This document shows, piece by piece, positions 1 to 23,075 of a stretch of DNA of 64,000 bases (position 1 is the first letter of the stretch; every line of letters starts with the position of its first letter). Source of the DNA: Anaspis maculata (lineage: Eukaryota > Arthropoda > Insecta > Coleoptera > Scraptiidae). The stretch covers positions 68,631,416-68,695,415 of the forward strand of contig OX421966.1 in the NCBI GenBank assembly GCA_949128115.1. The letters are read 5' to 3'. The position numbers and the translations under genes were made by a program. The notes beneath the pieces were generated by a model. It worked only from the letters and a program-made list of their open reading frames with translations. It ran no database searches and was not told the DNA's origin.

Positions 1-1732
1 CGAAAAGATTGAAGAACTGAGATATTTCCACAAATAAGTGCTTTATTTTGAGCTCCATCGTTTGAGTCCGGTCTCGATAAGCCAGATTGCTCATTTTAAA
101 GTGGAAAACTCCCGGGAAACTTGGAGAATTCCAGTAGAAATTGCTCGAAAATGTTCAAGAATCACTTACCTTTTGTTTAAAAAAAAGTTAGTATGAATCT
201 GTTCACAAGCTGAAAAATTAGAAATTTTGCATTTTTTTAGAAGGAACCAAATTATGTACAAAGAAATAACGAGTGAGGCATTCAAGCAGACGCATTGTTA
301 TATGGATGAAGGTGAACGATTTGAAACTGGCACCACAGAAAGATTGAAATTAATTTGCAGGAAGATGAGAATTGTTAAAATCTGGATTTTCTGGGAAAAC
401 CTCAAATCTTTTCCAAATCATTCAACTGTAAAGATCGTCAATTATGACTTCACTTCAAGCTACATAATTCAAGTCCCGTTTCGAATTACGCATACGCAAA
501 ACTGGATAAGTTTCTGGCAGTGGCCCGTGAAAGGGGTGATTGTTGTGTGCCATCAACAATGTGACTGACATTTGTTGACAAGAATTTTGAAGGTTGTAAG
601 CTACAACTTTTTAATTATTCAATTAATTGCATTTCCGGCAGGATTTACTTAGGCAGGATTGCCATTCCATGGTTACACATATTTTCTCGATACATAGATG
701 TTAGTCCCTACACATAACTCGATAGGGGTACCAAAACCGCGTCCGTCTTCCTTACTAATATGGAACAAGAATGCTTTCTTTTGTTTTGGGATTGGGCTGA
801 GGCGAAATTGATGTCTCTGGGTCCATCTGCTGTTGAAGATCCCAGCACACGTATTATCCTTGCAACTTTCCCAACATATTATCCTCCCATATGCGGTATG
901 ATATGTGCTTTGGTGAAACTTTGGTAATATTTTTTATCATTCTCTGTTGGCGCACACACATAGGTGCGGATATATAGCAGACCGGGCGATGCGGCCATAT
1001 TTCACGTTGGGACAACAGTTATACGGGATCCTGGTGGAAACTTTGGTGGATTTATGACCGCAATAGAGCCAGCGCCATCTGCACCGCCGCGTCCATAAAA
1101 CAGTCGCGTATATAGCGGGCGAGCACAGACATCCCAGAAGAATTTAATATGTCTCCCCGGTTTATTGCTCACGTAATGTGAGTAGTGCCCCGGCCTCAAG
1201 ACTAAATATCAATATCTGCTAGCATATACTGCGGCTGCAAATGTGCGGTGGCATAGGAGACAAGGTGGTGTGTGTATATAGTATACCTAATGCCAATGCC
1301 TTTATGTCTTGTACACGTTCAACCTGAAAACATATGCATCAGTTAAGTATTAGCTCGAGTCTTTATGAACTTTTTGTTGCGTGCCTCCGGCGATTTTTTT
1401 CCAACGGTTTCGTATTTATACCAAGGCGGCTTTTTTAAATCATGTCCATTTGCATTTTCCGCCCTTACGACATTAATTTTCGGGCAAAACAATTAATTTG
1501 CGGAAATTCGAGACGCCAGAACTAGAGCGTGTCAAGCGCAAATCTTTTAGTTTTGTTCCTGCGGTAATGGCACATTTGTGGCACACAGCAAGCACCCCCG
1601 CCGTTCCCCAGTCCAATGAAAAAATAATTAAGAAAAATAGATGAAAATCGACAAGAGTGATAGCGTTTTGGAAATGGAACCTAATTAATCAGCACCTCCG
1701 CCATTTCTGCTTCACCCGCTAAAGTGTATACC
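1..1732. other. Unassigned sequence, no gene recognised
   Basis: Short open frames occur (for example 227-568 on plus and 1002-1199 on minus), but none resembles a known protein family and none has convincing splice or promoter context. No tandem or inverted repeat stands out. It may be host intergenic DNA or very old transposon sequence. Confidence 0.5.
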
Positions 1733-1734
1733 TA

Positions 1735-1864
1735 CGGGGTGTTTATAAGAAACTGTGATCGCGGCAGGCATGGGTCAGGCCGAAAAACGCAGTAACAGGC
1801 GCGATTCTAGTGATGAAAGCGGATTCCAAAGGCGATGCGATCACAGACGTTTATAAACACCCGG
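1735..1864. mobile_element. 130-bp MITE flanked by TA
   Basis: The first 28 bases (1735-1762) and the reverse complement of the last 28 (1837-1864) match with few differences. Both arms read C-G/C-GGGTGTTTATAA and then CTGTGATCGC. The element is bounded by TA on each side (1733-1734 and 1865-1866), as expected for a Tc1/mariner-type target duplication. It has no coding capacity. The superfamily call rests on the TA flanks and terminal form only. Confidence 0.75.
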
Positions 1865-1866
1865 TA

Positions 1867-3606
1867 CTAGCAGAAAAGATAGATCTCTTTCCTAAGATTA
1901 CCACGATTTTTGTTATCATGATGTGATCCGAGCATATTATTAAAAAGGTACAAAAGTATCGAAATTAGAATCAAAACAGTTGGCGCCTCCACCATTTTCC
2001 TCAATTATGTTCTGCGATGCCAACAAGACAACGACGCAATTTTATGCCATCAGAGTCTTCTGTATTATCCCAACGAACCTGGGTTTCAGAAACGCGAACA
2101 AAAACTATTTTACCCACTGCTACATAGATGATACTCGGCGCCTCCGCCATTTTTGCACGTCGTTTTCGGAAGCTCCGCCAGAAATGATGCAATTGCAGGA
2201 TTTCGTCGGCCGTTTTCCATTGGTCCCGACTCTCTCGTGTGCGTTCCCGCAGGATCTGCGTGTGATGATGAGACACTTGCGCATCGTGATGGAACAAATG
2301 GGCATCGACCGCAGACTAGATAGGATGGGCGCATGTGTTGCCATCCACGGCCGGCTGTGATTCGTTGTGCACAGACAACTCGAACTGGCGGATGAGCAGA
2401 GATAGCGGGAGCTTCCCGAGCGCACGCCTTCGCTTCTCTGTTGAAAATGGCGTGCGTTCGGTAGGCTCTTCGGGAAATATCAAGTTTGCTTGTTTTGTCT
2501 GCATCCTGATTATGATAAGGTAAATTTGGAATTGTACCGATGAGTCGTGGAAAAATGTTGAAATTCTTTCCTTATAGGGAAAATCTCGGAGTTGTAGCCG
2601 TTTTTAATAAAATTCTGGAGCGGTTTTCGAAAATCGAGTGGAAATGGCGAAGGCGCCGCTTATAAACTGCTTGAAAACCGAAACGTTGTGGTCAATTATG
2701 CCCGATTCCAAAGTTAAATAACTTTGGATCGCTGAAATCGATTTTGATTGTTTCCAGTATCTCTCAGCTTGATTGTTTAGAAATCTGTCGTAGCCCCTGA
2801 ACTGACACTATGCAAATTGTTACGTGAAATCCGGAAATGAATTTCGATTAATTTTTACTACGTTCTTGCAGACGCTGTATCTCAAAGACTATCGACCACA
2901 AAGTAATGAGTTAGGTACTGTTCCTTTTGGAATTTACCGGGCTACGTTTGCTTCCCGGTGTTTATGTGCCAAAGGTGATAGTTTACAAGATATTTAAAAA
3001 AAAGAACATTATCAAGGATGGCGCTCTTTTATTGGCCCTGAAAGGAAAGTCAAGCTTAGGAATTTCCGGGAATTTTAGTACCTATGTTCTTCCACGTTAA
3101 ATTCTGCATTGATTCACCAAATTTCGTCAACTTCTGCGACACTGTTGCCAAAATTAGAAAGTTGGTTGTTCAACCTCGTCATGTGTTTTGAATTACCAAA
3201 CTTGACGCTTTTACGATTCCACCAAAACTGTGCCATTCCAATTTTTAACACACTGTTGGTGAATTTCTTTTTCGAGGTCGCAAATAACTAGCCTACTATA
3301 CTGGTCAGCAGGGTAGACGGAACCGGGGGGCAAAGGGGGCCATGCCCCCCCAATCTCAGTCTTGGGGGGGCCTGGCTCCTCCAATTTTCTCGATGAAGAG
3401 TTTTTCTTCATGTCAAAAAAGATAGTCACGCGCGCCTTTTTTCCGAAGAAATTTTCGCTTGCGGCGTTTCCCGCTTCGCTCGCACTTTTTTTCTTCTCAC
3501 TTATGCCCCTCCCAATAATTAGACATTTCCGCCGCCCCTGCTGGTCAGTACAGAAATTATTTAGGTCTGTCATTCCACCACAAGTACAGACTGCGAACAA
3601 CCCGGC
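1867..3606. other. Unassigned sequence, no gene recognised
   Basis: Overlapping short ORFs on both strands between about 1980 and 2520 coincide with a GC-richer patch and match no family I recognise. The phrase GGCGCCTCC(G/A)CCATTTT recurs near 1980 and 2138, with an inverted partial copy near 2641. From about 3315 to 3375 there are opposed runs of G and C, which look like transposon-end debris. Confidence 0.4.
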
Positions 3607-3719
3607 AGTGCGAAAGAGACACGGATAGATTTTTCTGTCAAGCCCTCGGCTAAATCTGTCCGCCGTGGAAAAAAAAACGAAGATATACAGGTGTTCCAGA
3701 GATGAGTACACAAAACGAT

Positions 3720-3919
3720 ATTTTATTTTTATTTTATTTATTTTATTCAATTGTCTTATTTTACGAGGCGACATTCAGCTATAAGCTGCTCTACCATGCA
3801 ACCTCGGGGACAGCACAAAATATCCATGGATGAAGTAGGATTCGAACCCACACAGGGCAGCGCGAATGGTTTGGCTTGCCATCACCTGTACCACTCGGCC
3901 ACCACCGCTCCAGGAATAC
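3720..3919 (-). mobile_element. tRNA-derived SINE
   Basis: On the minus strand a Pol III A box (TGGCCGAGTGGT, near 3890-3901) and a B box (GGTTCGAATCC, near 3838-3848) are spaced as in a class II tRNA of Ser/Leu type, and an A-rich ATTTT-type tail follows at 3720-3750. The acceptor halves do not pair, and the anticodon loop lacks T33 and has a mismatched closing pair. It is therefore not a working tRNA. The homologous repeat at 12350-12370 lacks exactly this segment, so it serves as an empty site. A second tRNA-like D-arm phrase (GGTAGAGCAG) lies near 3783-3792, so the SINE may be composite. Confidence 0.7.
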
Positions 3920-4034
3920 CACATATTCCTGACAGCAAAATAGGTCGATTCGACTGAACTTACCTCTGTACCAAAATGCTTCATAAGAAAGATACAGGCC
4001 TTCAAAGTTCATTTTTGGATGTAGTTTTTATGGC

Positions 4035-4214
4035 CAGTGGCGTAACTAGAAATATCCAATGGGAGGGGGGGGTCACGACTGAAGGATGTTATTGAAAAAC
4101 TGTCATTTGTGGAAGCTGCGATTAGGAATGATAATTTCAAATACATGTTAAAAAAATGTTTTGATGGCCAATGTGGGGGGCTTTGACCCCCCCCCCCCGC
4201 TAGTTACGCCACTG
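4035..4214. mobile_element. hAT-like MITE, 180 bp
   Basis: The terminal inverted repeats are CAGTGGCGTAACTAG at the left and its complement at the right. An identical 8-bp direct repeat, TTTATGGC, flanks the element at 4027-4034 and 4215-4222. An 8-bp duplication with CAGTGGCG ends fits non-autonomous hAT-type elements. Internally there are only G- and C-runs, with no ORF. A second copy at 12472-20400 is split by later insertions. Confidence 0.8.
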
Positions 4215-4687
4215 TTTATGGCATATCTCCGATACCGTTGGTGATAGAACGACAAAATTTTGTACAGTCACTCAGGTTTTCATGCTTTACAATATGACGC
4301 TACTAGCCCAGGCATTTTGGATCAAAATTGATCAAAACCTGGAAAAAAATAACGTAAGTCTGAAAATTGGTAGAACGCTTCCACTTCAACCCCTTAACCA
4401 CATACTGAAAGTCCTAAGAAATCCTATGTCCGCTTCATCGGTTTTTGGCGGCAAAAAGGTGTAAATGGCAATAATTTAGGAACTATCTATTAGAATACGC
4501 GATGAAGCTTCGATACAGCTGAACATTGTTGAAAATGATCTCCTTGGCCAGTTGAACAACATTTTGAGAGTCCTAAAAATCCTATATCTGCTTTATCGTT
4601 TTTTAGCGGCAAAAAAGCATAAGTGACATTGCTTTGACAAACTATAAAATGACAAATATTCTATATTATGTCACCGATCTACCGAGG
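4215..4687. other. R1 right flank and unassigned sequence
   Basis: The part up to about 4301 belongs to repeat R1. Beyond it a phrase of roughly 40 bases around AAGTCCTAAGAAATCCTATG (about 4408-4440) recurs in altered form near 4568-4610, suggesting an old tandem duplication. No gene is seen. Confidence 0.4.
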
Positions 4688-4871
4688 TTGTATAGACAAT
4701 ACAAATAGAAAAGACCATATGTCGTCACGGATTTTTACGGTTGCGTAGGAACCAGGCGAGTTCATCATTCAAAAAAAGGTTGGCTGATTTTTGATGCCCC
4801 AATATCCGTGACGACGGTGCCGGTGGTGATAACATATGGTCTTCTCTTCTCTATTTGTATTGTCTATACAA
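4688..4871. mobile_element. 184-bp MITE with long terminal inverted repeats
   Basis: The left end begins TTGTATAGACAATACAAATA and the right end is its reverse complement. The match extends 35-40 bases per arm, with a 5-base indel, through CATATGGTCTT. A shorter inner pair, TCCGTGACGAC and its complement, also folds back. No ORF is present and the target duplication is unclear. Confidence 0.7.
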
Positions 4872-5103
4872 TCATGAACAAATTGCTAGTCGAGAACGAG
4901 TCCTTTCATCTGGACATGCACAACAAAGATGGCAGAGCTTTTAGAGACAATGAAAAAGTTTTAATCATGTCTATGTAATGTACCTACCCATTTTAAAATA
5001 TGATGTTTTACTGTGTCGTGTATAATTCCCATATTTATATTTTTTCGTGTAAATGGAGTGTTCCGTTCGAAATAAACATGATGATAATAATAATCAATAT
5101 ATA
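4872..5103. other. Short unassigned stretch with ATGATGATAATAATAA tail-like run
   Basis: Around 5070-5098 an AATAAA-like signal is followed by a GATAATAATAAT run, which resembles the 3' tail of some insect non-LTR retrotransposons. No upstream coding remnant is recognisable, so this stays a suggestion. Confidence 0.25.
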
Positions 5104-7291
5104 CAGGGTGTTTCGCAATTACGGTTACAAACTTCTAGGGGAGATTCCCCATCAAAAATGGACCAGGAAATAATATAACTTCGATGTCCTAAAATGCTCC
5201 GTTAAAAAGATACAGGGTGTTCAAGTTAACTTTTCAAAATCGATTTTTTGACATAACTTTTGAACCGTTCAACTGATTTCGTTCAAATTTATAACAAAAG
5301 GTACCAGAATAGTTCTCTATTGAGGGAGAAAACTTTATTCAAAGTGGGCTGCCCGTTTACTTCGGGTTGCAATAGTACACAGCATACCGATCAATCCAAT
5401 GGGAAAATGTAAAATGTATAAAGTTAAAAGATAAAAATAAATATAGCATATTATATATGAATATGTTTGTGTAAAATCCTTATCGCATCGATCAGAATTT
5501 GTTCTGATATGTCATTAATTATGGTCATGTCGAGTTTAAAACGAATAAAAAAGTTGATTACGCTTTTTCCTACAGTGCCTCGGCTTCCGAACCAAAGGCC
5601 AAGCACTTCCCACTTCCGAGTTCCATATTTTGGTTGAAGGGAATTTGTTTTCGTAGTAGTCGATACATTTCTCGTAGATAGCACGTTTTTCGTCACGGAT
5701 TTTCTCTTGATCCTCATCGTTTGTTTCGTATCGAACTGTAGGGTCGATTATAAAAGCCGAGTCCGACTTCGAGTCAAAGGCAACGATGTCACTGAAGCGA
5801 TTCAGACCGTCAGTGTCGATAGCGTGTACCTCTTCGTAGCATTCGAAGTTCTTTTTCCTCAAAAGGTCAGTTATATGGTGTTTGACTTTGTGATGACGAT
5901 TGGTGATCTGGGTGTTGTTCGCTTTACAGCTTCCAATTACATGTGAGGGTATTTCTCTCTGCTGGTCACTACAACGTCGGCAGAGGATGGAGCTGTGTTG
6001 TGAACCAGGTACACCGTTCAAGTTTGCGTAGTTAACGTTTAGTTTAATGGCTGCAGTCCAATCGGATGTTGATAATGAGTAAAAATGAGCTTTTCGTAAA
6101 AATTAACTTATTTGTCTTTGTGTGAGTTTGGAAGTGTGTGACTCCTACGCCTTGATAAGAGCATTTGCTCCATTCTTTGAAGGCTGATAGTCTCAGTTTG
6201 TTCCTCAGTTCTTTGGTGGACTTGCCATCGACTGATAATGATTAAAGGCAGTCTTTTTGCTCTTTTTCAAAATCGCTTATGCTTTTCAGAAGACTGTCAT
6301 TGACTCGGTTTAGTTTTAGTGCTATTGAGAAATGTTGAAATTGGACTTCCCATTTTGCATTCATCAATGCCAGTCCTCGAAGTTTGCGAGGAGCATAGAA
6401 CATGTCATTATTCGTGTTGCTCGGAAGTCCAATGATTTCTTTAACAGTTCTTCTAATCATCACGTCCAACCCATTAGCAACGTGTCCAGGAAAAAAAATC
6501 ACGGGCGTAGATAATGGGGGCTGTCTTCATATTGGCCCCCCTATATTTCACCTCTTTAGCTATTTTCTCAAATTGTTCTAATTTTTGATTTCTACGTCCA
6601 ATTTAGAAAAAAAGTTTCTCTTACAAAATTTTGATTAGAGGCTTCGTTTCTAAGATATTTGGGTTTGAAACTTTGGAAAACATCCCGAAATCGCCACTTT
6701 CAATGAGCCCAGTTTTTTTTTCTGAAAACTTCTCGTTTTTCTAAAAAAATAGTGGTTTATCAACTTAGAAATTCTAGTGAACCGATTTCGGCTGAGAAAT
6801 CATGAGTTTTTTGGATTCTAATTTTTAGGCCCCTTAAAAGTGGCAATTTCAAGATGTTCTTCAAAGTTTCAAACCCAGATATCTCATAAATGAAGCCTCT
6901 TATCAAAATTTTGCAGGAGTAACTTTTCCCTCCAAATTAAACGTAAAATCCAAAAATTGAAACAATTCGGAAAAATAGCAAGGGGTGTGAAAAATAGGGG
7001 AGGAAAACAGGAGAACACCCCCCATTATCTACTCTCCCGAACTTTTTCTTCTCAACACGTTACTATTATTCGATAGAGACTTAATTCAGCTAACTTTGTT
7101 TGAAGTTTGAACAAAGTCGGCAAAACGGTTCAAAACTTATGTCAAAAAATCAGTTTTAAAAAGTCAACTTGAACACCCTGTAACTTTTCAACGGAGCATT
7201 TTAGGACATCAAAGCTAAATTTTTTTTCCTGGTCCATTTTTTATGAGGAATCTCCCCTAGAAGTTTGTAACCGTAATTGCGAAACACCCTG
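5104..7291. mobile_element. TA-flanked palindromic (foldback) element containing an R2-like LINE fragment
   Basis: The element starts CAGGGTGTTTCGCAATTACG and ends with the reverse complement, with TA at 5102-5103 and 7292-7293. The outer arms pair over about 200 bp (5104-5330 with 7060-7291). A second inverted pair lies inside (about 6520-6760 with 6780-7030). A closely related interior occurs in the element at 45766-46809, which lacks the LINE, so the segment from roughly 5340 to 6510 is a later insertion. The TA flanks suggest Tc1/mariner-type mobilisation. No transposase is present. Confidence 0.75.
5536..6502 (-). pseudogene. R2-like non-LTR retrotransposon, 3' fragment (RT thumb, zinc finger, restriction-like endonuclease)
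   Basis: Two minus-strand frames belong together. The upstream one (6502-6242) contains RRTVKEIIGLPSNT and APRKLRGLALMNA, typical of the region just after the RT palm in R2-like elements. The downstream one (6021-5536) has a CxxC...HxxxxC finger (CRRC ... HVIGSC), then RHHKV. A restriction-like endonuclease core follows, with DIVAFD and IIDPTVRYE, where an SD replaces the usual PD. The frames are offset and the RT catalytic palm is missing, so this is a 5'-truncated, broken copy. It lies inside a palindromic element. Confidence 0.75.
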
Positions 7292-7477
7292 TATGTATAA
7301 TAAAAGTAAGTGCCAAATCTTTGTGCCGCTAAAACTCAAAAACGAGTACCGCTACGATCAAGGGAGTTATATGGTATGGTAGCCCTATATCCCCCATCGA
7401 TGAAGAAGGTTTCCGTTTTTACCTAAAGGGCGTGCTTTTGAAGATATAAGAGCTGGAAATTTTTAGCTCTCTAGAAA

Positions 7478-9850
7478 TGTCCAGAGCTTTCGAGAGTATT
7501 CGAGATCATTCAACAACATTCCAGAATGTTTCGGTATGTTCTGGAATGTTCGGAAATAGTCTTCAACGTTCGAATAATAAAAGAAAGTGTACAGAGGACA
7601 GAGGTGCGTGCCGGAACTCAGAAACGAGTCCCAGTAGGATCAAAGAAGTTATATGGTGTGGTAGCCCTCTATGCCCCATCCATGAAGAAGGTTCTTGGTT
7701 TTATTTGACGGGCGGGCTTTTTTAAAGATAAAAGGGCTGGAACTTTCGCTCTCTAGAATGTCTAGAACAGTCCAGAACATCCTAAAGTATTCGAGATCAA
7801 TCAACAACATTCCAGAATGTTCCGGTATGTTCTACAATAGCCTTGGAACGTTCGGAAACATCCCGGAACATTCCAGATCATTGTGGAACATTCGAGATTA
7901 TTCCATAACATTCAAAAATGTTACGGTGTGTTGTAAAATGTTCGGGAATAGTCTGGAACGGTCGGAAACATCCCGCAACATTCCAAATCATTGTGGAACA
8001 CTCGAGATCATTCTATAACATTCCAAAATGTTCCGGTATGTTCGGGAATGGTCGGGAATAGTTTGGGATGTTCGGAAACATCCCGTGATTATTCCACAGC
8101 ATTCCAGATTGTTCGGGTATATTCGAGAATAGTCTGGAACGTTCTGAAACATTCCGAAACATTCCAATCCATTGTGGTACCTACATTCGAGAGCGTTCCA
8201 CAACATTTCAGATTCCAGAATGTTCAGGTATGTTCTAGAATGTTCAAGAATAGTCTGGAACGTTCTAAAACATCCCGGAACATTCCAGATCATTGCGGAA
8301 CATTTTAGATCATTCTACAACATTCCAGAATGTTCAGGAATGTTCTAGAATGGTCGGGAATAGTTTGGAATGTTCCTAAACATCCCGAAATATTCCAGAT
8401 CATTGTAGAGCATTCAAAATCATTCCATAACAGTCCAAAATGTTTTGGTATGTTCTAAAATGGTCGGGATCATCTAGAACGTTCAAAAACATCCCGGAAC
8501 ATTCCAGATCATTGTAGAGCGTTCGTGATCATTTCACAACATTCCAGAATGTTCCGGTATGTTCGGGAGTAGTCTGGAACGTTCGGAAACATCCCAGAAT
8601 GTTCCATTATGTTCTAGATGATCGAAAATAGTCTGGAACGTTCGGAAACATCCTGGAACATTCCAGATTATTTTGGAACATTCGAGATCATTCTATAACA
8701 TTTCAGAATGTTCTGAATTGTGGGGAATAATCTGGAACGTTCTGGAACATTCCTAAACATTCCAATCCATTGTGGTACCAACATTTGAGATCGTTCTATA
8801 ACATTCCAGATTCCAGAATGTCCCGGTACGTTCTAGAATGTTCGAGAATAGTCTGGAACGTTCAAAAACATCCCGGAACATTCCAGATCATTGCGGAACA
8901 TTCTACATCATTCTACAAAATTCCAGAATGTTCAGGTATGTTCTAGAATGGTCGAGAATAGTCTGGAATGTTCCTGAACATTCCGAAATATTCCAGATCA
9001 TTGTAGAGCATTCAAAATCATTCCATAACAGTCCAAAATGTTTTGGTATGTTCAAAAATGGTCGGGATCATCTAGAACGTTCAAAAACATCCCGGAACAT
9101 TCCAGATCATTGTAGAGCATTCGTGATTATTTCACAACATTCCAGAATGTTCTAGTATGTTCGGGGGTAGTCTGGAACGTTCGAAAACATCCCAGAATGT
9201 TCCATTATGTTCTAGAATGATCGAAAATAGTCTGGAACGTTCGGAAACATCCTGGAACATTCCAGATCATTGTGGAACATTCGAGATCATTCTATAACAT
9301 TCCAGAATGTTCTAGAATTGTCGGGAATAGTCTGGAACTCCCGAAAACATCCCGGATCATTCCAGATCACTGTGAAACATTCCAGAACACCTTTGAAAGT
9401 TCCTGCAACATTGTGAACCATTCGAAGCTTTTTTGGTGTGGAGCCACCTATTAGTAGAGGTGCAGTACAGAATAAGTACATAATATTCGAAAGTATTCAA
9501 GATCATTCCACAACATTCCAGAATGTTCCCGTATGTTCTGGAATGTTTGGGAATTGTCTGGAACGTTCGAAAACATCTCGAAACATTCCAGATCATTGTG
9601 GAACATTCTAGGACACTCATGAAAGTTTCTGAAACATTATGGACTATTCGAAGCTTTTTTGGTGTGGGGCCACCTATTGGTAGAGCTGCAGTAGGTACAG
9701 AATATTCGAGAGTATTCGAGATCATTCCACAACATTCCAGAACGTTCCGGTATATTCTGGAATATTCAGGAATAGTCTAGAACGTTCGGCCAGGAACATT
9801 CCAGAACACTCTCGAATGTTGTGGATTCTGGAAAGTTGTGGTCTATTCGA
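7478..9850. repeat. Minisatellite of alternating TTC/GAA pentamers (heat-shock-element consensus array)
   Basis: Nearly the whole stretch keeps a 5-base phase in which TTC and GAA alternate, each separated by two bases (TTCnnGAAnnTTCnnGAA). This is exactly the arrangement of the HSF binding site. For example, from about 8831 the triplets read TTC, GAA, TTC, GAA, GTC, GAA, TTC without a phase break. Larger units of roughly 100-130 bp are visible (recurring GGTATGTTC, AACATCCCGGAACATTCC, CATTGTGGAACATTC). Occasional 1-base indels shift the phase. Long ORFs here reflect scarcity of stops, not coding. Confidence 0.85.
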
Positions 9851-10190
9851 AACTTTCTTTCGGTTTGAGTGGGGCTACTCATTAGTAGGCGTATATAAAG
9901 CAAGCTCCGTCGTGGTTTTGTACACCTGTTTCTTGCCAGTTGTTGATGAAAAGTTGATATGATAGACAGTTTACAAAATGCCCAACGTGGAAGAGGAGAT
10001 CTTGCGAGTTCTGTAGCAAAATGGCGAAAGAAAAAAACGAACAGCGAAAACATGAAAAAGTCGAAGAGCGCGAAGTACGGTAGACGTTCCCAACGAATAA
10101 GTAGAATGAGCACCGTTAGATGCAGAGCAGTCACTCATGAAAATATCACCCTACGAGAAGCGCGAGCGAACGAGGACTAGGTTTCGCTTA

Positions 10191-10221
10191 GGGGCCGCGA
10201 AGCGGCCCCGGCGAAAGCTAG
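10191..10221 (+). other. Helitron-type 3' terminal hairpin and CTAG end
   Basis: GGGGCCGC and GCGGCCCC form a perfect 8-bp stem with loop GAA (10191-10209). Eight bases later the element ends in CTAG (10218-10221), and the next base is T. The inverted copy has the same CTAG end at 12573-12576 but a degenerate 5' stem. Confidence 0.7.
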
Positions 10222-10306
10222 TATATAAATAAAAGGTGGTCTTCCCACAAAATGTTCATAAAATATTTCTGACTGCAGTTTCGGGACTCTCTTTGTCTAG
10301 GGTCGG

Positions 10307-12199
10307 CACAATTGTTCCTAGATCCAAAGTGAATAATTTGGCCAGCTGTTATTTTTGAATACCCCCTGCTGGTCCGGGATTTGGGGGATACAAGGGGTAC
10401 ATGACTATTTTTTGCTGCAAGCACTAAACGCTGCTATCGAATCATGTTTGATGTCATTTCTGGATAACTAGAGCCTGCTGATCACGATGTCGCCACTGTC
10501 AATTTTACGATGGGGGCTTCCTGAATTGATGAATTTTGGTCATTGAAGGGGATGTGTGGGGTATCATTTCTGACATAATCGAGGTTTTCGAACTCATTTC
10601 TTTTTGTAAAAATGTAATTGGTTTGAAACTGGAAAATATGATGGGTCAAAATTATGATTATTGATTTTCAAACATTTACAATTAGCATTGATTCCACTTT
10701 TGTTGCACTTGCACTTTTGTTGATCAGGCTGAGGACTGAGCTAGCGAGTCACGATACCGCCATTGTGGAGGCGCTGCGTTCGCTAGAAATCGAGCTATGA
10801 TGGATTTATTCGAATTGGAAAAGTTCTTGAAAGTCGCTGCAGTGGCCATTCAAAAAAGAGTGGAATATAATTTCGACCGCCTTTAGACTCAGAGAGTCTA
10901 CTTTTTTGCATAAAAATGAAATTCCGTCAATATTAGGGGGCTCATAAAATGGGGACTTTTTACTTTCTGATCCACAAGCACTCGCCTTGAACCTTAAAAA
11001 AATACATTTCAGCAAAAAATCATGACGCCGATGCGATGCTGTCATCACTGAAGCGATACGTTAACCAAAAGCCGAGTGGGGGCTGTGACTCTTTGTACTT
11101 GGGGTGCGCGTCTTGAATTAGGTTAGTTTGGTCTTGAAATATGATGTGTTGGGCAACATTTCTAATGTTTTTTGAGTCGCTGATTTCATTTCTCAATGCA
11201 AAATTCTGATTGACTTACAAGCGGAGTTGTAGCTGTCTTGGTACATGGGAGATATCCCAATTCTCCTCGAATTCTAACTCAATCAAAATTTTGCGTTGAG
11301 AAATGAAATCAGCGACCCAAAAACCATTTAAAATGATGCCCAACACATCATATTTCAAGACCAAACTTACCTAATTCGAGACGCGCACCCCAAGTACAAA
11401 GTGTTACTGCCCCCACTCGGCTTCTGGTTGACGTATCGCTTCAGCGATGACAGCATCGCATCGGCGTCATCAATTATGCTGAAATATGTTTTTTCAAGGA
11501 TTCAAACGAGTGCTTGCGTGAAAAAAAGCGAAAAATCTATATTTCATGAGCCCCCTTAATATTGACAGAATTTCATCTTTATGCAAAAAAGTAAGTTTGA
11601 TGACTTTAAAGGCGGCCAAAATTATACTCCACACTTTCCTTAACGGTCCATATAACCAGTTTCAGGGATTATTTCAATTCAAAATTATTTGTCATAAGTC
11701 GACTTCTGGAGAACGCAGCGCCAATGACGGCATAATAATTCGTTGACCCAGCCTATTAAAAGTGGCGACCAAACTCAGTCCAATGCGAATAGTAAATGTT
11801 TGATAATCGATAATCATAATTTTAACCCCTCATATCTCCCACAGTTTCAAACCAATCACATTTTTACACAAAGAAACGAGCTTGCAGACCTCGATTATGT
11901 CAGAAATGATACCTCACACATCTTTCGATGACCAAAATTTGTTATTTCAGGGAGACTGCAAATCTAACAGCTCTACCTTGTCTCCCGACAGACGCATCAT
12001 TCTGACAGTGGCGACATCGTGATCAGCAGGTTCTAGTTATTCAGAAATGACATCAAACATGAATAGATAGCAGCGTTCAGTGCTTGCAGCAAAAAATAGT
12101 CATGTCCCCCTTGTACCTCATAAGTCCCGGACCAGCAGGGGGTAATCGAAGAGAACAGCGGGCCAAATTATTTATTTTGGTTCTAGGAACAATCATGCC
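10307..12199. mobile_element. 1.9-kb palindromic element
   Basis: The sequence from about 10307 (ATTGTTCCTAGATCC) reads back from about 12199 as an imperfect inverted repeat over both halves. Matched landmarks are CCCCCTGCTGGTCCGGGA (left) and its complement near 12130, the TGATGTCATTTCTG block, and the TATTGACGGAATTTC-like block near the centre. The symmetry point is at about 11200-11290. The target duplication was not resolved and there is no convincing ORF. It lies directly between two oppositely oriented Helitron-like copies. Confidence 0.7.
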
Positions 12200-12783
12200 A
12201 AAGTTTTTGTTTGTATCACAAAGTGCAGGATTTTTTTGTGTACCGCTAGTACTAAGAGACACGGATAGACTTTTCTGTGAAGCCCCTTGGCTAGATCTGT
12301 CTGCCGTGAAAAAGCGAAAATATACAGGTGTACCAGAAATGAGTACCTACACAAAAAGATATCACATATTTCTGACAACAAAGTATTCAACTAAACTTAC
12401 CTCTATACCAAAATGCTTCCTGAGAAAGATACAGGCCTTCAAAGTCTACTTTTGGATGTAGTTTTCATGGCCAGTGCCAGTGGCGTAACAAGAGGTGTCC
12501 AATGGGGCGGGGGTCACGGCTGAAGAATGTTGTTGAAAAACTGTTATTTGTAAAAGCTGAGATTAGGAATAACTAGCTTTCGCCGGGGCCGCTTCGCTTT
12601 CGCCGTTTGCTATAGAACTGGCAAGATCTTCTCCTCTTCCACGTTTGGGCATTGGCATTGTACATATAAAATATAAATAAACTTTTTATTTACAACTGAT
12701 AAGAAACTGGCGTTCAAAACCACGACGAATCTTGCTTTACATACCCCTACCAATGAGTTAATGCCATCCATACCAGAAATGTT

Positions 12784-14615
12784 TTGAATGGTGCACAATG
12801 TTCCAGAATATTCCACAACATTCGAGAGTGTTCTGGAATGTTCCACGATGATCTGGAATATTCCTGGATGTTTCCGAACGTGCCAGCGACTATTTCTGAA
12901 TATTCCAGAATATACCGAAACATCCTGGAATGGTGTGGGATAATGTCGAATGCTCTCGAATGTTCTGTACTGTATACCTCTACCAAAAGGTGGCCCCACA
13001 TCAAAAAGGCTTCGAATAGTCCCCAATGTTACAGAACCTTCCACAACTTTCAATAGTGTTCTGGAATATTCTACAATGATCACTGAAATTGTTCCGGGAC
13101 GTTTTTGAACATTCCGGATCATACCGAAACATTCTGGAATGTGGTGGAATGTTCTTGAATATTCTCGAATTACCCGAACATTTTAGAACATAAAGGAACA
13201 TACTGGAATATTGTGGAATGATTTCGAATGATCTACAATGATTTGGAATGTTTCAGAACGTTCCAGACTATTCCCGAACATTCCAGAACATACCGGAACA
13301 GAATTTCCCGAACATTTCAAAACGTATCGGAAGATTCTTGAATGAGTATGATCTCGAATGTTCCACAATGATCTGGAATATTTCGACTAGTTTCCGAACG
13401 TTCCAGACAATTCCCGAACATTCTAGAACATACCGGTACATTCTGAAATGTTGTGGAACGATCTAGAATGCTCCACAATGATGTGGAATGTTCCGAGTAG
13501 TTTCTGAACGTTCCAGATTATTCCGGACTATTTCAGAACATATCAAAACATTCTGGAATGTTGGGGAATGACCTCGAATGTTTTACAATTATCTGGAATG
13601 TCTCCGAACGTTCCAGACTATTCTCAATCATTCCAGAACATACTGGCACATTCTGGATTGTTGTAGAGTGATCTCGAACACTTTCGAATTTTCCGAACAT
13701 TCCAGAACATACCGGAACATTCTGGAATGTTGTAGAAGGATCTAGAAACTTCCACAATGGATTGGGATGTTTTGGAATGTTTCCGAACGTTCTAGACTAT
13801 TTTCGAGCATGCCGGAACATTCTGGAATATTGTGGAATGTTGACGAATGCTCCACAATAATCTGGAATGTTTCGGGTAGTTTCCGAACGTTCCAGATTAT
13901 TCCCAATCATTTCAGAACATACCGGAACATTCTGGAGTGTTGTGGAATGATATCGAATGTTCCACAATGGGTTGAAATGTTCGGGAATGTTTCCGGACCT
14001 TCCAGACTATTTTCGATAATGCCGGAACATTCTGGAATATCGTGGAGTGATAACGAATGCTCCACAATGATTTGAAATGTTCCGGGTAGTTTCTAAACGT
14101 TCCAGACCATTCCCGAACATACCGGAACATTCTAGCTGTAATGTTGTGGAGTGATAGCGAATGCTCCACAATGATCTGGAATGTTCCAGGTAGAACGTTC
14201 CAGACTATTCCCGACCATTTCAGAAGATAACGGAACATCCCAGAATGTTGTGGAACGATCTCGATTCTCGATTGTTCCACAATAGATTGGAATGTCCCGG
14301 AATGTTTTCGAACGTTCCAGGCTATTCCCGAACATACCGGAACATTCCAGCTGGAATGTTGTGCAGTGATAGCGAATGCTCCACAATGATCTGGAATGTT
14401 CCAGGTAGAACGTCCCAGACTATTTCCGACCATTCCAGAACATACCGGAACATCCCAGAATGTTGTGGAACTATCTCGATTCTCGAATGTTCCACAATAG
14501 ATTGGAATGTTCCGGAATGTTTTCGAACGTTCCAGGCTATTTCCGAACATTCTAGAACATACTGGAACGTTGTGGAATGATCTCGAATACTTTCAAATGT
14601 TCTGGACTGCCCTAC
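12784..14615. repeat. TTC/GAA pentamer minisatellite, second array
   Basis: It has the same 5-base alternating architecture as 7478-9850. Near 12802 the triplets read TTC, GAA, TTC, CAA, TTC, GAG, TTC, GAA, TTC with two-base spacers. Recurrent larger units contain GAACATACCGGAACATTCTG. Some copies have gained short insertions such as an extra AGCTG block near 14133 and 14350. The 212-codon minus-strand ORF at 13912-14550 is a by-product of the repeat. Confidence 0.85.
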
Positions 14616-14804
14616 ACATTTTAGAGGGCGAAAAACTTTCAGCCCTTATATCTTCAAAAGCACGCCCCTTAAGGTAAAAACGGAAACCTTCTACATCGAT
14701 GAGGGATAAATAGTCCGGATGTTAAGAGGAAATACCCTGCATTTTGAGGTAGAGCGAAGCCCCTTTGCATGTGTGATGCTTGGACCCCCCCAGATCCATA
14801 ATGA

Positions 14805-16080
14805 TCGGTAGCCACCAGCAAAAATCGTGCAGGCACTGTATACAGGGTGAAGCAGAAAAAAAATTAGGAAAATTGGTATTTCGTGAACCAAAACGGATGG
14901 AGTCGCGTGAAACACCATATCTGTTCCAAATTTTGCGCTTATTAAGATGAAGAAATCTGTTTTTGATTATCTCGTGCCATTTTTGAAATATCGTGGAAAG
15001 AAAAAAAAAAGAAAGCTGAAAATTGCCTTTCCATAAATGGCTGAAAATTCAAGATAACGAGATGCGATTTGGTTTGTATGCTCTGAGTGATGTTTCAAGT
15101 GAAATTCGAGGAGTAGCCACCTGGAAAATCACTGCGGGCGCTGTTACAGGGTGAAGCAGAGAAAATTGAAGATAAATCGTATTTCATGAACCAAAACGAA
15201 TGGAGTCCCGCGAACCACCAAATTATGTTCTCAATTTTGCTTTTGACAAGATGTAAGCAATAGTTTTTGAAAATCTCATTCATTTTTTGAAAAATCATCA
15301 CAAGAACTTTTTCTTTTTTGAACTTTATTTTTTTTATGAATGACTGAAAACCCAAGATATAGACGTGCAATTTGTAGGGTATGTCGATACTGATGTTCTA
15401 AGTGAAACGCGATTGATAGCCACCGGCGCCAGTACTGCAGGCGCTGTATACAGGGTGAAGCAGAGAAAATTTAAAAAAAATCATATTCCGTGAACCAAAA
15501 TGGATAAAGTCGCGTGAACCGCCTTATGTGCTCTGAATTGTGCTCTTGAAAAGATGTGGGCAATAGTTTTTTAAAATCTTGTCGACAATTTTGAAAAAAT
15601 CGCCATAAAAACTTTTTCGTTCTTGAATTTCTTTTTTTTTATGATCGTCTGAAAAGTAAGTATAATGAGATGCAATTTTGTGAGTATGTCGATAGTGATG
15701 TTCTACGTGAAACGCGATTGGTGATCACCGACACCAACACTGCAGGCGCTGTATACAGGGTTAAGCAGAAAAAAAATTGAAAAATCGTACCTATATAGTA
15801 GTTCGACAGGGATGAGGTCGTGTGAACCACCATAATATTTTTTTGATTCTAAAATTGTTATTATGCAAAAAACCACTTGAGATACCCCGTTCCGTTTTGA
15901 AAGAATCGCGAACAAAATTTTATTATTGATTTTTTTCCAGTGATTGTATTGGCAGAAAGTTGAAGCTGTAGAGATGCCATTCGTCACGCACCTATGTCAA
16001 AAAGTATATTCCAAGTAAACTGCAACAGGTGGCCACCGGTGTCAGAAATGTGGGGGCTATATACAGGATACAGCAGAAAA
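14805..16080. repeat. Left arm: five tandem ~303-bp units
   Basis: Each unit has the phrase GCAGGCGCTGTATACAGGGT or a variant (near 14840, 15140, 15436, 15742 and 16045). An AAGCAGAAAA run follows, then a block like TTCGTGAACCAAAATGGAT and a GTCGCGTGAACC(A/G)CC block. Units diverge toward the centre of the element. Confidence 0.7.
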
Positions 16081-16599
16081 AAAAGAGATAAAGTTATACC
16101 TCATGGTGAGTCGCGACCCGAAACCAATAAAGTCGCGTGAAGCACTATAGGTATATATTCCATTTTTTACATTATTAAGATGCAAAACACTGTTTCAGGA
16201 TGTCTGGTCCCGATTTTAAATAGGTACTACAGTTATTGCGCGTAGATTTTTTTCTATAAAAATTCTTTCTTTAATGAATGCAAATGGTGAAAAATTTCAA
16301 GATATGTGGTTATTGTATCTATATAGGAATATAATTTAAATTTGATATGTACTGTCAGGAGCACTGTATCACACACAACAATTTTTTTGTAAATCCAAAA
16401 AAGTGACAAGGCTATGAAAGAGCCCTTACGGAGTTCATTCACCATGAAGTCCTTTTTTTTTGAGTTTTTTTTAATGACAAAAATTTTAATGTATGTGATA
16501 TTGTGCTTCTGACGGTACCCTATACGTGTGATTTTTCTGGTTCTTGTTGATATTCAATTGAAATTCGTTGATGAGTCAATAAATAAAATAAAATAAAGA

Positions 16600-18650
16600 T
16601 CATGTTATCGGGCCAAGTTCATCCAAACATGTGTACTTTATGGAGCCTCACTATGTGCTTTAAATAAAAGAGATGGAGGGATACGTCCCATAGCTATGGG
16701 CACAACTCTTCGACGTTTAGCAGCCAAGCTTGCTTGCCAAATCGTACGTGAATCAGTGGGAAACTACCTTCGTCCCGCTCAGGTCGGTTTTGCAACCAAA
16801 GGAGGATCTGAATCAGATCATACATGTGTGCCGAAGCTTCATTGAAGATAATAATATAACAACATAAAATAAGGTGATACTCAAAATAGACTTTCAAAAT
16901 GCCTTGAACTCAATAGAACGTGACAGCATGTTGAACGAAGTTCTAAAACATAATCCTATTTTGTTTCCATTTATCCCAGTATTACATAAATGTATCATAT
17001 TTATCATTTGGGGATGAGAAGATTTTATCAGAAGTTGGAGCTCAACAAGGGGATCCCTGGGGATCCCACTGGACCAGTGCTTTTCTACCTTGCCATTCAG
17101 CCAATTCTAAATCAACTTAATTGTAAATTTAATGCATGGTACTTAGATGATGGTACCTTAGGAGGAGCTCCAGATTTAATTGTTGCAAGTTTCAAAATTG
17201 CATCTGAAAATTGTGAAAATCTTAGACCTAACATCAATGATCAAAAATGTGAAATTTTCTTCTGCTCATCTTTCAACTGTGAAACCTTCAAATCCTTCGA
17301 AAACCACCTACCTGGGATCGGAGTAGTTTCAAAAAAATCTCAGACTACTAGGTGGACCGTAGAGCGCTGAATCTACAGAAATTATTATGATTGAAAAAAT
17401 AACAGAACTCAAATCATTACTCGATCGATTAAAGCTTCTAAATACGCACACAGCATAGTATCTGCTTCGCCACTGCTTGGCCATCCCGAAATTGAACTAC
17501 CTTCTCCGGACTACGCCCTTGAATGGATTCCATGACTCAATCAACAAGCTCGATAGCCACATATTTGCAACATTGGAGAAAGTGATGAATATAAAATTAG
17601 AGCGGAACCAATTACGAATGGCTTCCTTACCAGTCCAATATCCAATATGGAGGACTTGGGATAAAATAAATTGATGACATCCATATAGAGCCGCTTTCCT
17701 CTCATCTGTAGTTTCTGTTTCTCGTTTGGTATCTTCTTTTATGTTCCTTCCCGAAGAAGACTTGACTTGGATCAGTGGGTGCAATGAATCTTTAGCAGAG
17801 TGGCTTCTAGTCAGTCATGAGGTTTCTGAGTTGTCACATATCCTGGGATACCATTAACATCAGGATAATAACTTAAGAAATGACGTCGAATCCAACTAAT
17901 TCAAGGATAGAAAAAACAAGATACCTGGCTTCGATAGCTGCCGTCTCTGGTGCTTGGTTAAATGTGTTACCGTGTGAAAATCTTGGGACTCCTTTAAACG
18001 ACAACGTGTTCCACATATCAGTTGCTTTGCACTTAGGATGTGAAATATGTAAACCTATCGTTGTGTCTGTGGGAGGATGGTTGATCTTAAAAGTATTCAT
18101 GGTCTTTCTTGCTCGAAAAGCGCTGGTATAGACAATCGCGTCATCGTGAAATCAACAACATCATCCAGAAAGCTCTTTCTACTGGCTCAAATTCCGTCAA
18201 CTTTAGAGCCTATCGGATTGTCAAGACTTGACGGGAAGAGACCAGACGGTATGACGCTAATACCTTTGTCTCACTGAATACATTTGGTCTGGGACGCGAC
18301 CTGTGCAGATACGCTTTCGCCTTCACATTTAGAAAACTCATAAAAATGTACTGGGGACGTAGCCGATATCGCTGCCAACAACAAACGGAGAAAATGTTGA
18401 TAAATTATTGAGGCAGGCTATCGGTTTTTAGCTTTTTCTGTGAAAACGCTCGGCCCTTGGTCCAAAGAGAGCGTACAATTTGTGGACTAATTAGGAAAAA
18501 GATTGAAAGCTGTGACTGGAAAAACACGTTCAAAAATTTACCTAATTCAAAGAATCAGTCTTGCCATTCAACGGGGAAATGCTGTGAGCATCATGGGCAT
18601 GTAGCCGTCGACCATTCCCTTCCCATGGATAAAATATTTTCAATTTGACT
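16600..18650 (+). pseudogene. Decayed non-LTR retrotransposon (RT and restriction-like endonuclease-type C-terminus)
   Basis: Across several frames one finds, in order: GGIRPIAMGTTLRRLAAK and AQVGFATKGG (about 16675-16810); GDPTGPVLFYLAIQPIL and WYLDDGTLGG (16990-17370), an RT palm with a YLDD box; PKLNYLLRT (17477-17674); then CxxC-like remnants, GLSCSKSAG, LDGKRPDGMTLIP (18077-18277) and a C-terminal stretch ending near 18650. The KRPDGM segment resembles the PD of restriction-like endonucleases. Multiple frameshifts and stops make it inactive. It sits at the centre of the foldback element. Confidence 0.7.
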
Positions 18651-18864
18651 TCACTCATTATACACATTATAATATTACAATTTTTATTATAAAAAATTTA
18701 TATCAATAATAAAATTTTAATCGCGATTCTTTCAAAACGAAACAGGCTATCTAAGTGGTTTATTGCATCATCATAATTGCAGAATCAGGAATATATATGG
18801 TGGTTCACACGACATCATCCCTGTCGAGCTACTAGGTACGATTTTTTAATTTTTTTTTCTACTT

Positions 18865-20120
18865 AACCCTGTATACAGCGCCTGCAGTGTTTGCGCCGGT
18901 GATCACCAATCATGTTCCACGTAAAACATCACTGTCGACATACTCACAAAATTGCATCCCTTTATCCTTAATTTTCAGCCATTCATAAAAAAAAGAAATT
19001 CAAGAACCAAAAAGTTTTTATGTCAATTTTTTCAAAAATGTCGACAAGATTTTCAAAAACTACTGCACACATCTTTTCAAGAGCGGAATTTAGAACACAT
19101 ATGGCGGTTCACGCGACTTTATTCATTTCGGTTCACAAAATATGATTTTTTAAGAATTTCCTCTGCTCCACCCTGTATACAGCGCCTGCAGTACTGGCGC
19201 CGGTGGCTATCAATCGCGTTCCACGTAGAACATCACTATCGACATACTTACAAAATTGCATCCCTTTATCCTTGATTTTCAGCCGTTCATAAAAAAAAAA
19301 GAAATTCAAGAACGAAAAAGTTTTTATGTCAATTTTTTCACAAATGTCGACGAGATTTTCAAAAACTACTGCACACATCTTTTCAAGAGCAGAATTCAGA
19401 ACAGATATGGCGGTTCACGCGACTTTATTAATTTCGGTTCACGAAATATGATTTTTTTAGATTTTTCTCTGCTTCACCCTGTATACAGCGCCTGCAGTAC
19501 TGGCGCCGGTGGCTTTCAATCGCGTTTCACGTAAAGCATCACTATTGACATATTCACCAAATTGCACATCTATATCTTGGGTTTTCAGCCATACAAAAAA
19601 AAAATAAAGTTCAAAAAAGAAAAAGTTCTTATGATGATTTTCCAAAAAATGAATGAGATTTTCAAAAACTATCACTCACACCTTGTCAAAAGCAAAATTT
19701 AGAACATAACTTGGTGGTTCGCGTGAGTCCATTTGTTTTGGTTCACGAAATACGATTTATCTTCAATTTTCTCTGCCTGACCCTGTAACAGCGCCCGCAG
19801 TGATTTCCCAGGTGGCTACTCCTCGAATTTCACTTGAAACATCACTCAGAGCATACAAACCAAATCGCATCTCTTTATCTAGAATTTTCAGCCATTTATG
19901 GAAAGGCAATTTTCAGCTTTCTTTTTTTTTTCTTTTCCCGATATTTCAAAAATGGCACAAGATAATCGGAAACGGATTTCTTTATCTTGATAAGCGCAAA
20001 ATTTGGAACAGATATGGTGTTTCACGCGACTCCATCCGTTTTGGTTCACGAAATACAAATTTTCTTAATTTTTTTTCTGCTTCACCCTGTATACAGTGCC
20101 TGCACAATTTTTGCCGGTGG
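18865..20120. repeat. Right arm: five tandem ~303-bp units, inverted
   Basis: The landmarks CCCTGTATACAGCGCCTGCA or variants occur near 18870, 19178, 19476, 19780 and 20086, mirroring the left arm. Unit order and sequence mirror the left side, so the arms can pair over more than 1.2 kb. Confidence 0.7.
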
Positions 20121-20312
20121 CTACCGATGATTATGGATCCGGGAGGGTCCAAGCATCACACATGCAAAGGGGCTTCGCTCTACCTCAAAATGCAGGGTAC
20201 CCCCTGTTTTTTGCTCTTAACATCCGGACTAAAAGGGCTACCACACCATATAACTCCCTTCATCGTAGCGGGGCTCGTTTCTGAGTTTTAGCGGCACAAA
20301 GATTTGACACTT

Positions 20313-20787
20313 CCACAAATACATGATAAAAAAATGTTTCGATGGCCGATGGGGAGGTTTTGACCCCAAAGCCCCCACCCCCCCGCTAGTTACGCTACTG
20401 TTCATGACATAACTCCGAAACCGTTGGTGATAGAATGACAAAATTTTGTACAGCCCACTTAGGTTTTCATGCTTCACAATATGACGCTACGATCGTTTCA
20501 AAATTCTACCCGGGGGGTGTCAAACTTATCAAGGGAGGTGTAAAATGTCCTCTAACTTTTTTGCGTGTGAATTTTTTTGAAGTTGAACACAACAATATGA
20601 ATTTTCAAATATTTTCACAGAGGAAAGGTGCCCTTGTTGAATTTCGATGAAATGCATGGTTATCAAGAAAAATCGATTCACATTACAAAATCGCCACATG
20701 TCAAAGTTTGCACTGCAGTTTTTCAAATTCACGGAATGTGCTAATCTCATTTTGAAAAAATTACCGTCGGAAAATCCAGCATACATG
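20313..20787. other. R1 remainder and unassigned sequence
   Basis: Up to about 20494 this is the tail of repeat R1. From there to the LTR I see no gene or clear repeat. Confidence 0.4.
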
Positions 20788-21941: not shown

Positions 21942-22040
21942 TGATGGCTTGGTGATTGAAATACATGAAACCTTCAACGCTCGATCAAGTCACATCTGTT
22001 CATTTTGGCGAAGGTGCAGACATTCCGGAGCACACGGGAA
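21942..22040 (+). repeat. Truncated 3' LTR
   Basis: This repeats the first 99 bases of the LTR at 20788 with few differences (TGATGGCTTGG, CTTCAACGCTCGATCAAG), then stops matching. The rest of the 3' LTR is missing. Confidence 0.75.
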
Positions 22041-23075
22041 GTAGGTTATAACATATTTTATTTTGTTATGCTGCTCCCGTTTTTCAAACGAGGTTGGTTT
22101 GCTGCGGCTAGCTAGTGGCAAGGGTGTGGGTTACGGCAATAGATGGTAAATTACAATATTTATTTATAAGGCGCCAGTTGGAAATTTAAGTGTGGACAAT
22201 CCGACCTTTTCCAACCAAGGATTTCGGATGATGCCGTTTGAATTTCCCGCCGTTGGTGCGACGCGTGAATGACAGTTGTCAAGGTCAAGTATTATGACAG
22301 TTTGAAACAGCTGATGTTTACATCGGCAAGTGGCTGAAATGGATTGTTTACAAAAAGTACTGAAAACGAAATGATTTTGGCATAATTGTGGACACAGTTT
22401 ATTCATAAATTGGATGTTATATGAATGTGAGTAACAAGCTACAATTTGATATATTATTTTGACTTTGATTTAACTTGAGCATAACTTGATGATAAAAACT
22501 TTAATTTTGCAGGTTAAATCTCTCCAGAACGAACATAAATGATGAAGGGAGGAAGACATTTACTGAAACGCGGCTGTTGGCTATTGTGAATAACTCCCGG
22601 CTCACTGTCTATTACCCAAACCTTACCTTTTTTGTTGGCCGATGCCATATGATTACGAATTACACAAACCTATCAGGGTATGGATCTGTGTGCACACATA
22701 TTATTTCCCAAAGGTATTCGATATTTGAATTATGACACAAAATAGAAATGTAAGGTTATTGGTTTTTTACAGAAGATAGAGGAGACCATAAAAAAACTTA
22801 GCCCTTGATGATAAATCGCTGCTCGTTCCAAGAGATACCCATCATGGATCGAGTCAAGTGGTGGAATTTATTCATAGCCGGTGACGAGATGGTGGACACC
22901 TGGCAAGCTGGTCATCATAATAGACGGGTCCAATTCGAGGTCCTGAAGGGAACGGTGAAGATAGAGGTACATCGGTGACATCATGTGGAGTGACATTTGT
23001 TTGGATCATATGTTTGGATCGGAGCCGGGACTTATTCGCTTAAGCCATCATCCTGGGAGACGACGACATGCCAGG
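22041..23075. other. Unassigned sequence
   Basis: No recognisable coding region, RNA gene or repeat structure. Short ORFs such as 22164-22406 on minus match nothing I know. Confidence 0.4.

Follow-up and report, generated by a model that had tools for sequence, protein, structure and literature searches.

A Helitron family with interior arrays of heat-shock-element consensus in what looks like an arthropod genome

Two Helitron copies and their surroundings

We analyzed a window of 64,000 nucleotides (G000:C6:68631416-68695415 of a 757.8-Mb assembly); positions given without a contig name are those of the window. Two copies of one Helitron, A and B, lie in it in opposite orientations, each carrying an interior array of heat-shock-element (HSE) consensus (Table 1). 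Copy A ends in CTAG at 10218-10221, followed by a host T at 10222, and 8 nt before the CTAG ends a hairpin with an 8-bp stem (GGGGCCGC/GCGGCCCC) whose DNA fold has an energy of -22.4 kcal/mol (z -6.4). About 8 nt of its 5' terminus have been replaced by the end of a neighboring repeat, and the 5' family consensus, an A followed by TCAATATATATAATAAAAGTAAGTGCC, was derived from other copies. The 5' block (7305-7485) is repeated at 7615-7766 with 80% identity, and by coordinates the array makes up about three quarters of the copy. The 25-base 3' end is found twice in the window, at 10197-10221 on the forward strand and at 12573-12597 on the reverse strand. Copy B has its 3' end at 12573 and is truncated by about 20 nt at the 5' side, where its 5' block (20234-20312) is 92% identical to that of A. 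The 3' subterminal block is 77% identical between the two copies over 185 bp, and a match to it (54-390 bp, 72-100% identity) was present in all 20 loci chosen by their 3' end. No frame of at least 150 aa with the look of a Rep/helicase transposase was found within A or B.

Table 1. Coordinates of the Helitron copies, their parts and associated features in the window
Feature	Position	Strand	Basis or description
Uninterrupted relative of the copy B insertion site (empty site)	3916..4303	+	blastn
Helitron copy A	7296..10221	+	5' family consensus from other copies; 3' end common to 120 genomic sites
First short HSE-type segment, copy A	7485..7572	+	precedes duplicate of 5' block (~7615-7760)
Main HSE-consensus array, copy A	7755..9850	+	10-bp unit GAAnnTTCnn, ~110-bp higher-order repeats; edges by eye
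3' subterminal block of the Helitron	9850..10196	+	common to other copies
3' hairpin and CTAG terminus	10177..10221	+	GGGGCCGC-GAA-GCGGCCCC nested in CTAGgTTTCGC...GGCGAAAGCTAG; DNA fold
Helitron copy B	12573..20313	-	inverted relative to A; split by nested transposon 14711-20231
HSE-consensus array, copy B	12768..14612	-	motif counts and phase model
Nested foldback-type transposon in copy B	14711..20231	.	917-nt inverted arms (92%), 305/306-bp tandem units

The flanks of copy B (12359-12570 and 20316-20490) match by blastn the two halves of a repeat that is uninterrupted at 3916-4303. In element orientation this empty-site relative reads TTTGAAA joined to TTATC, consistent with insertion between A and T, with small indels that blur both junctions. 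Arrays A and B are inverted repeats of each other, as would be expected of a single foldback element with arms at 7388-9860 and 12768-14708. This reading is ruled out, since B alone is bounded by the halves of the repeat uninterrupted at 3916-4303 and single copies are dispersed through the genome.

The same termini are found elsewhere. The 40 loci L027-L066 provided 31 5' ends. In 20 of them the conserved 5' word is preceded within 34 nt by an A followed by TCAATATA, most commonly in the form of A followed by TCAATATATATAATAAAAG; the remaining 11 are degenerate, truncated or abut other repeats. On the 3' side, CTAG is followed by T in A, in B and in the 11 loci of L027-L046 where the 3'-end word was found. 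Five further loci of this set have a damaged 3' end, and CTAGT is kept in four of them (not in L030). Genome-wide, the 3' end occurs at 120 sites (at most 2 mismatches, with the T included in the pattern), and the reversed control gave 0. Judged by these ends and the hairpin, the element is a true Helitron, and the array forms its body. An earlier note on this DNA had spoken of a Helitron-like element, and the TC 5' end after A, the CTAG before T, the hairpin and the 120 genomic 3' ends bear it out.

Some details of the termini deserve mention. A shortened 3' hairpin, or none, is seen in B, L028, L035, L029, L031, L037 and L043; the last four have the hairpin deleted and CTAGT kept, which suggests palindrome-mediated deletion after insertion. 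In L027 (G000:C4:94502000-94509500, about position 2640, + strand) the CTAGT of one copy directly abuts the 5' end of the next, a head-to-tail tandem. At 7288-7296 of the window and in L034, L045, L048 and L053, a sequence ending in ACACCCTGTATA or CACCCGGTATA is joined to the AT-rich 5' tip of the Helitron, as if other elements inserted there by preference.

The rest of the window is also rich in repeats. The foldback-type transposon nested in B has the ends GTCCGGATGTTAAGAG with TA on both sides, a possible TA target duplication. A palindromic MITE-like element (self-inverse, 77%) lies between copies A and B at 10305-12199. At 29607-31928 an element has inverted arrays of a 16-bp unit (GACAATTCGTCGCACG / TGCGACGAATTGTCCG) on either side. 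At 44150-50397 a LINE-like frame (46834-49374) lies between inverted arrays whose 15-bp unit is rich in TTCC/GGAA; GAA and TTC are frequent in these arrays and HSE spacing is rare. From 52884 to the end of the window at 64000 there are about 20 tandem copies of a satellite of ~551 bp. Among five window frames scanned with Pfam, two matched reverse transcriptases, a third had a Ty3 capsid match below threshold and the other two gave nothing; the window had no Rfam match and no tRNA was found in it.

Composition of the array

The 2373 bp from 7478 to 9850 are a minisatellite with a 10-bp unit, GAAnnTTCnn, and higher-order periods of 110 bp and longer. We scored HSEs with consensus patterns and not with a published HSF weight matrix. 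The earlier note had described TTC and GAA alternating with two-base spacers for about 2.4 kb, and the gap counts do peak at two: for gaps of 0 to 4 bases, TTC-gap-GAA occurs 6, 12, 32, 0 and 0 times and GAA-gap-TTC 0, 0, 51, 9 and 1 times, so that the two-base spacer is dominant. In 200 dinucleotide shuffles the corresponding numbers of TTCnnGAA and GAAnnTTC were 1.8 and 1.9. A cyclic 10-state phase model gave 467 in-phase cores for array A, 207 of them perfect and 404 with at most one mismatch, in agreement with the dozens of perfect in-phase pairs noted before. Array B has 361 such cores (173 perfect, 320 with at most one mismatch), 26 TTCnnGAA, 39 GAAnnTTC and 19 three-unit HSEs. Exact three-unit HSEs number 25 in array A (16+9) against ~0.1 in dinucleotide shuffles; there are nine four-unit (overlapping), two five-unit and one six-unit HSEs, against 0.01, 0 and 0. 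Within the window, 44 of the 47 three-unit HSEs fall inside arrays A and B, with 16 in the densest kilobase. A background of 45,460 bp (1-7300 and 14720-52880, which omits the interval separating the copies as well as the satellite beginning at 52,884) has two three-unit matches. Two reading frames of the array were queried, and no protein relatives were found for them.

More demanding controls gave a mixed picture. With shuffles that preserve the columns of the 10-bp phase, the expected three-unit HSEs are 36.8 in A and 34.2 in B, and 25 and 19 were observed; for four-unit HSEs the expectation is 15.4 in A and 15.0 in B, and the observed counts are 9 and 4. Thus the claim of an HSE density above shuffled sequence holds against dinucleotide and phase-permuted controls and fails against 10-bp-column shuffles, under which three-unit runs are rarer than expected. 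Likewise, runs of four or more pentamers are present, but the earlier note's "many" is too strong for nine overlapping matches where the 10-bp profile by itself gives 15.4. The least kept core base is the G of GAA, with a conservation of 0.68 in A and 0.65 in B; among 16 other arrays, where its value ranges over 0.61-0.78, it is the lowest in 13. This G is a key contact of HSF.

These data bring in the main rival to a role of HSF, namely that the array is a by-product. A near-palindromic 10-bp repeat (e.g. GAACATTCCA / TGGAATGTTC) would have been expanded by slippage or unequal exchange, the HSE match would be accidental and HSF would be irrelevant to the spread of the element. We regard this as quite possible. 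The higher-order consensus already has 8 of its 22 cores broken (14 are perfect), and other transposons of the window carry unrelated minisatellite arrays without HSE spacing, both as a by-product would have it. Against it stands the exact two-base spacing: phase-permuted, period-preserving controls reached the observed three-unit count in only 0.35% (A) and 0.15% (B) of 2000 permutations.

The array is also rich in the 8-mer ACATTCCA, about as frequent as the three-unit HSEs, and it might be a platform for another factor, either TEAD/Scalloped or some other reader of this word. The TEAD/Scalloped consensus is CATTCC, and we take ACATTCCA to resemble such a site. Counting both the word and its complement, A has 27 occurrences and B has 19 (0.26 and 0.17 in dinucleotide shuffles). 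Phase-column shuffles give 5.3 and 4.8, so the observed numbers are five-fold and four-fold higher, and every one of 13 copies has 21-29 occurrences. Nevertheless, a handful of dominant 10-mers, inherited by common descent, accounts for this excess. Such a factor would leave the strict TTC/GAA alternation without explanation, and its binding would be a proposal drawn from the motif. We consider this reading improbable.

A third use of the repeats would be by the Helitron itself, as transposase sites or hairpins or in a single-stranded replication intermediate, similarly to the tandem THAP sites in the ends of Galileo. Folded as single-stranded DNA, 8212-8511 reaches -57.6 kcal/mol (z -8.9, 200 shuffles), against a z of -1.3 for a control of the same length (22000-22299), and Galileo is described with multiple transposase sites in tandem repeats (in the part of PMC3688188 used here). 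However, any palindromic repeat folds strongly: in plain energies without shuffles, the minisatellite at 29500-29799 (-50.3) folds as low as a second array segment (-48.8). Two of the 20 loci with an exact 3' end have no array within 3.5 kb, although they may be truncated, and Helitron transposition needs only the ends. Given the near-palindromic unit, the strong fold is equally compatible with a by-product, with a replication intermediate and with any role of HSF. Use by the Helitron itself appears very improbable to us.

Distribution in the genome

With the array as query, at least 319 matching pieces were found genome-wide (39 of 734 candidates scored). Eleven places on seven contigs, including the window's own, match over the whole query, give or take one base at each end, with 90-100% identity. 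Exact 3' ends number at least 44 among the matches listed: two are the window's own, six are in loci fetched earlier for the array, 21 make up 20 fresh loci (all those remaining on C1-C3) and 15, on C4-C7, were left out. Arrays with 6-36 three-unit HSEs within 3.5 kb were present in 18 of the 20 loci selected by their exact 3' end, the two others being L054 and L059. These arrays differ in structure, with best blast identities to A of 67-86.5%. In the 16 of the 18 that were measured, 43-52% of the cores are perfect and there are 5.3-14.1 three-unit HSEs per kb. That structurally different arrays all keep such a proportion of perfect cores speaks against a by-product.

Genome-wide there are 402 five-unit HSEs, with overlapping matches scored separately; the reversed pattern gives 13. 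We defined as array-like a spacer of CA, TG, CG or TA between GAA and TTC, found in 48 of 51 cases in array A, in 35 of 39 in array B and in 1 of 19 in the window background. Among 100 five-unit HSEs listed, both GAA-TTC gaps hold an array-like spacer in 60, one of the two does in 23 and neither does in 17. Five places chosen for their clustered five-unit HSEs were all relatives of the array (65-71% identity), each with a short match to the 5' block (46-181 bp, 77-95%). The 40 loci L027-L066 together hold only 13 five-unit HSEs, which places the majority of the 402 away from the copies that have this 3' end, in diverged relatives or in other repeats. The 17 without any array spacer (e.g. C1:79414568 and C1:111164221) indicate that the genome also has other repeats with HSE-like runs.

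We also looked outside the genome. No relatives of the HSE-Helitrons were matched in phages, and 21 bases of the 3' end had no exact match in viral or genome contig collections. The six-pentamer HSE pattern was found in 18 viral contigs, at one place each, probably by chance.

Divergence of cores and spacers

Thirteen near-full arrays were aligned, A and 12 of the 20 fetched, the other eight being dropped for a best match below 2000 bp or 88%. Outside CpG, the substitutions from the consensus were 217/7752 in intact cores, 252/9137 in degenerate cores and 344/10264 in spacers. The ratio of intact to degenerate core divergence was 1.015 (95% block bootstrap 0.85-1.23), i.e. no HSE-specific constraint among the 13 copies, as expected of a by-product, and that of intact core to spacer 0.835 (0.70-1.02). 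Without TG/CA sites the stratified odds of intact core against spacer fall to 0.69, and those of intact against degenerate core are 1.01.

The best-aligned internal duplications show little difference between core and spacer outside CpG: 79/642 vs 48/355 (12.3% vs 13.5%, p 0.62) and 98/622 vs 51/331 (15.8% vs 15.4%, p 0.93). When CpG sites were kept, the best duplication of A had fewer changes in the core than in the spacer (84/672 vs 78/447, p 0.024). Many of the alignments of lower identity had fewer non-CpG changes in the core (e.g. 159/885 vs 111/478) and others had no such deficit (e.g. 119/548 vs 57/288), while the non-CpG counts over all internal matches also lean to fewer core changes. 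On the higher-order consensus, non-CpG divergence was 12.4% in intact cores, 18.8% in degenerate cores and 19.5% in spacers. The lower value of the intact cores would count against a by-product, but a slip of the alignment by one 10-bp unit mimics core conservation, and therefore we do not rely on the signal of the higher-order and internal comparisons. The longer timescale points to core conservation in a confounded way.

Altogether, there is no clear evidence that HSF binding is maintained by selection, since intact cores diverge like degenerate ones and three-unit runs are rarer than the profile predicts. The decay within copies says little about selection on the source elements, so that a role of HSF sites in the spread of the family is compatible with these tests.

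The host genome

The best named matches of the gypsy pol ORF of the window were in Lepidoptera and spiders, and for this reason the host is probably an arthropod, which is also what the earlier note had taken the genome for. It encodes an HSF DNA-binding domain (C1:11098196, E 3.5e-28), with further matches to the domain in two adjacent pieces at C9:23224513-23224825.

The genome has 18 matches to the domain Helitron_like_N, and 13 of these fall in open frames 1017-2411 aa long. A total of 7.5 kb of flanks around the one at C1:6829763 holds one three-unit HSE and gave no match to the ends or array of the HSE-Helitrons. A better-scoring match at G000:C1:8648417-8648956 (212.9 bits, in a 1017-aa open frame) is a candidate for another autonomous Helitron lineage.

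The best uninterrupted full-length HSP70 frames are at C1:0.83-0.85 Mb, C3:17.64-17.66 Mb and C2:3.49 Mb. Among the family ends and five-unit HSEs listed, the one nearest to any of these three clusters is at C2:3379795, at 111 kb, so that none comes as close as 100 kb.

Comparison with known systems

Human satellite III consists of GGAAT repeats bound by HSF1 in nuclear stress bodies, and it is transcribed on heat shock. The present array is likewise a tandem repeat with GGAAT/ATTCC and HSF-type sites, whereas satellite III is pericentromeric and not mobile. Foldback, Galileo and Tetris (PMC3688188; PMC4079207, in the parts used here) are, like our family, transposons with internal tandem arrays. 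They have long terminal inverted repeats, in contrast to the Helitron ends found here, and single copies of our family have no such repeats.

The closest parallel is in nematodes: the earlier note had pointed to HSF-bound motif arrays on Helitrons of Caenorhabditis, in an element different from this one. Indeed, in the passages of Garrigues et al. (2019, eLife, PMC6927752) used here, Helitrons of Caenorhabditis carry clusters of more than 10 HSEs per kb, with occupancy by HSF-1 and Pol II; a rise of this occupancy on heat shock would be expected of elements of this type. As in those elements, we find dense HSE clusters in Helitrons (16 in the densest kb of A), a strong excess of long HSEs in the genome, inside such elements where examined, and no transposase gene in the copies examined here. 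The level of 10 per kb is exceeded in A, with an HSE pattern different from theirs, and not every array reaches it. Our family differs in its arthropod-looking host, in an array that is a 10-bp/110-bp higher-order minisatellite, and in being known from sequence and not from occupancy by HSF-1 and Pol II as in Caenorhabditis.

In the same passages, a survey of UCSC genomes is reported to have found enrichment of HSE-Helitrons only in three Caenorhabditis species, and the clusters are suggested to be possibly restricted to that genus. The pattern printed there for the cross-species search, NGAANNTCCNNGGAN, is not, as printed, a consensus of the present array; unless this is a misprint, the survey may have overlooked arrays of the present kind. 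We found no report of HSE-bearing Helitrons in arthropods in the literature searched, subscription papers aside. Works on Artemia (PMC11492255) and Nematostella (PMC13104882) cite the worm results and, in the passages checked, report no HSE-Helitron arrays. What we have here thus looks like an HSE-Helitron family of the Caenorhabditis type in a second phylum.

Interpretation

The explanation that we prefer, with a probability of roughly 0.55, is a probably non-autonomous Helitron family, with about 120 recognizable 3' ends, whose interior is an HSE minisatellite and whose copies would be scattered HSF-binding arrays. From the motifs, binding of HSF to the arrays is likely. On heat shock, trimeric HSF would bind runs of three or more pentamers, of which the arrays have 5-14 per kb; in the part of PMC9148306 used here, the nematode HSF-1 DNA-binding domain binds multimeric HSEs cooperatively. 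By analogy with the Helitron HSEs of Caenorhabditis, the copies could then put nearby promoters under heat control, or they could titrate HSF. HSF sinks, heat-inducible enhancers and stress-body-like loci, the roles put forward in the earlier note, are thus candidate functions. Most of them are probably passive, putative binding platforms that decay neutrally after insertion.

A wider proposal is that Helitrons captured and amplified HSEs independently in a second animal phylum, and that most long HSEs of this genome are now mobile and recruit genes to the heat response. This is tentative, and we find it rather doubtful. If the independent capture were true, taking up HSF sites would be a recurrent strategy of rolling-circle transposons and not a peculiarity of Caenorhabditis.

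The roughly 120 ends and the 31-fold excess of five-unit HSEs over the reversed pattern, in a genome that looks arthropod, indicate that the combination of HSEs and Helitrons arose or persists outside Caenorhabditis. Should HSF bind these arrays, the family would be a second system in which to test the rewiring of the heat response by transposons. Should it not bind them, they would offer a natural experiment on how well binding can be predicted from motif density alone.
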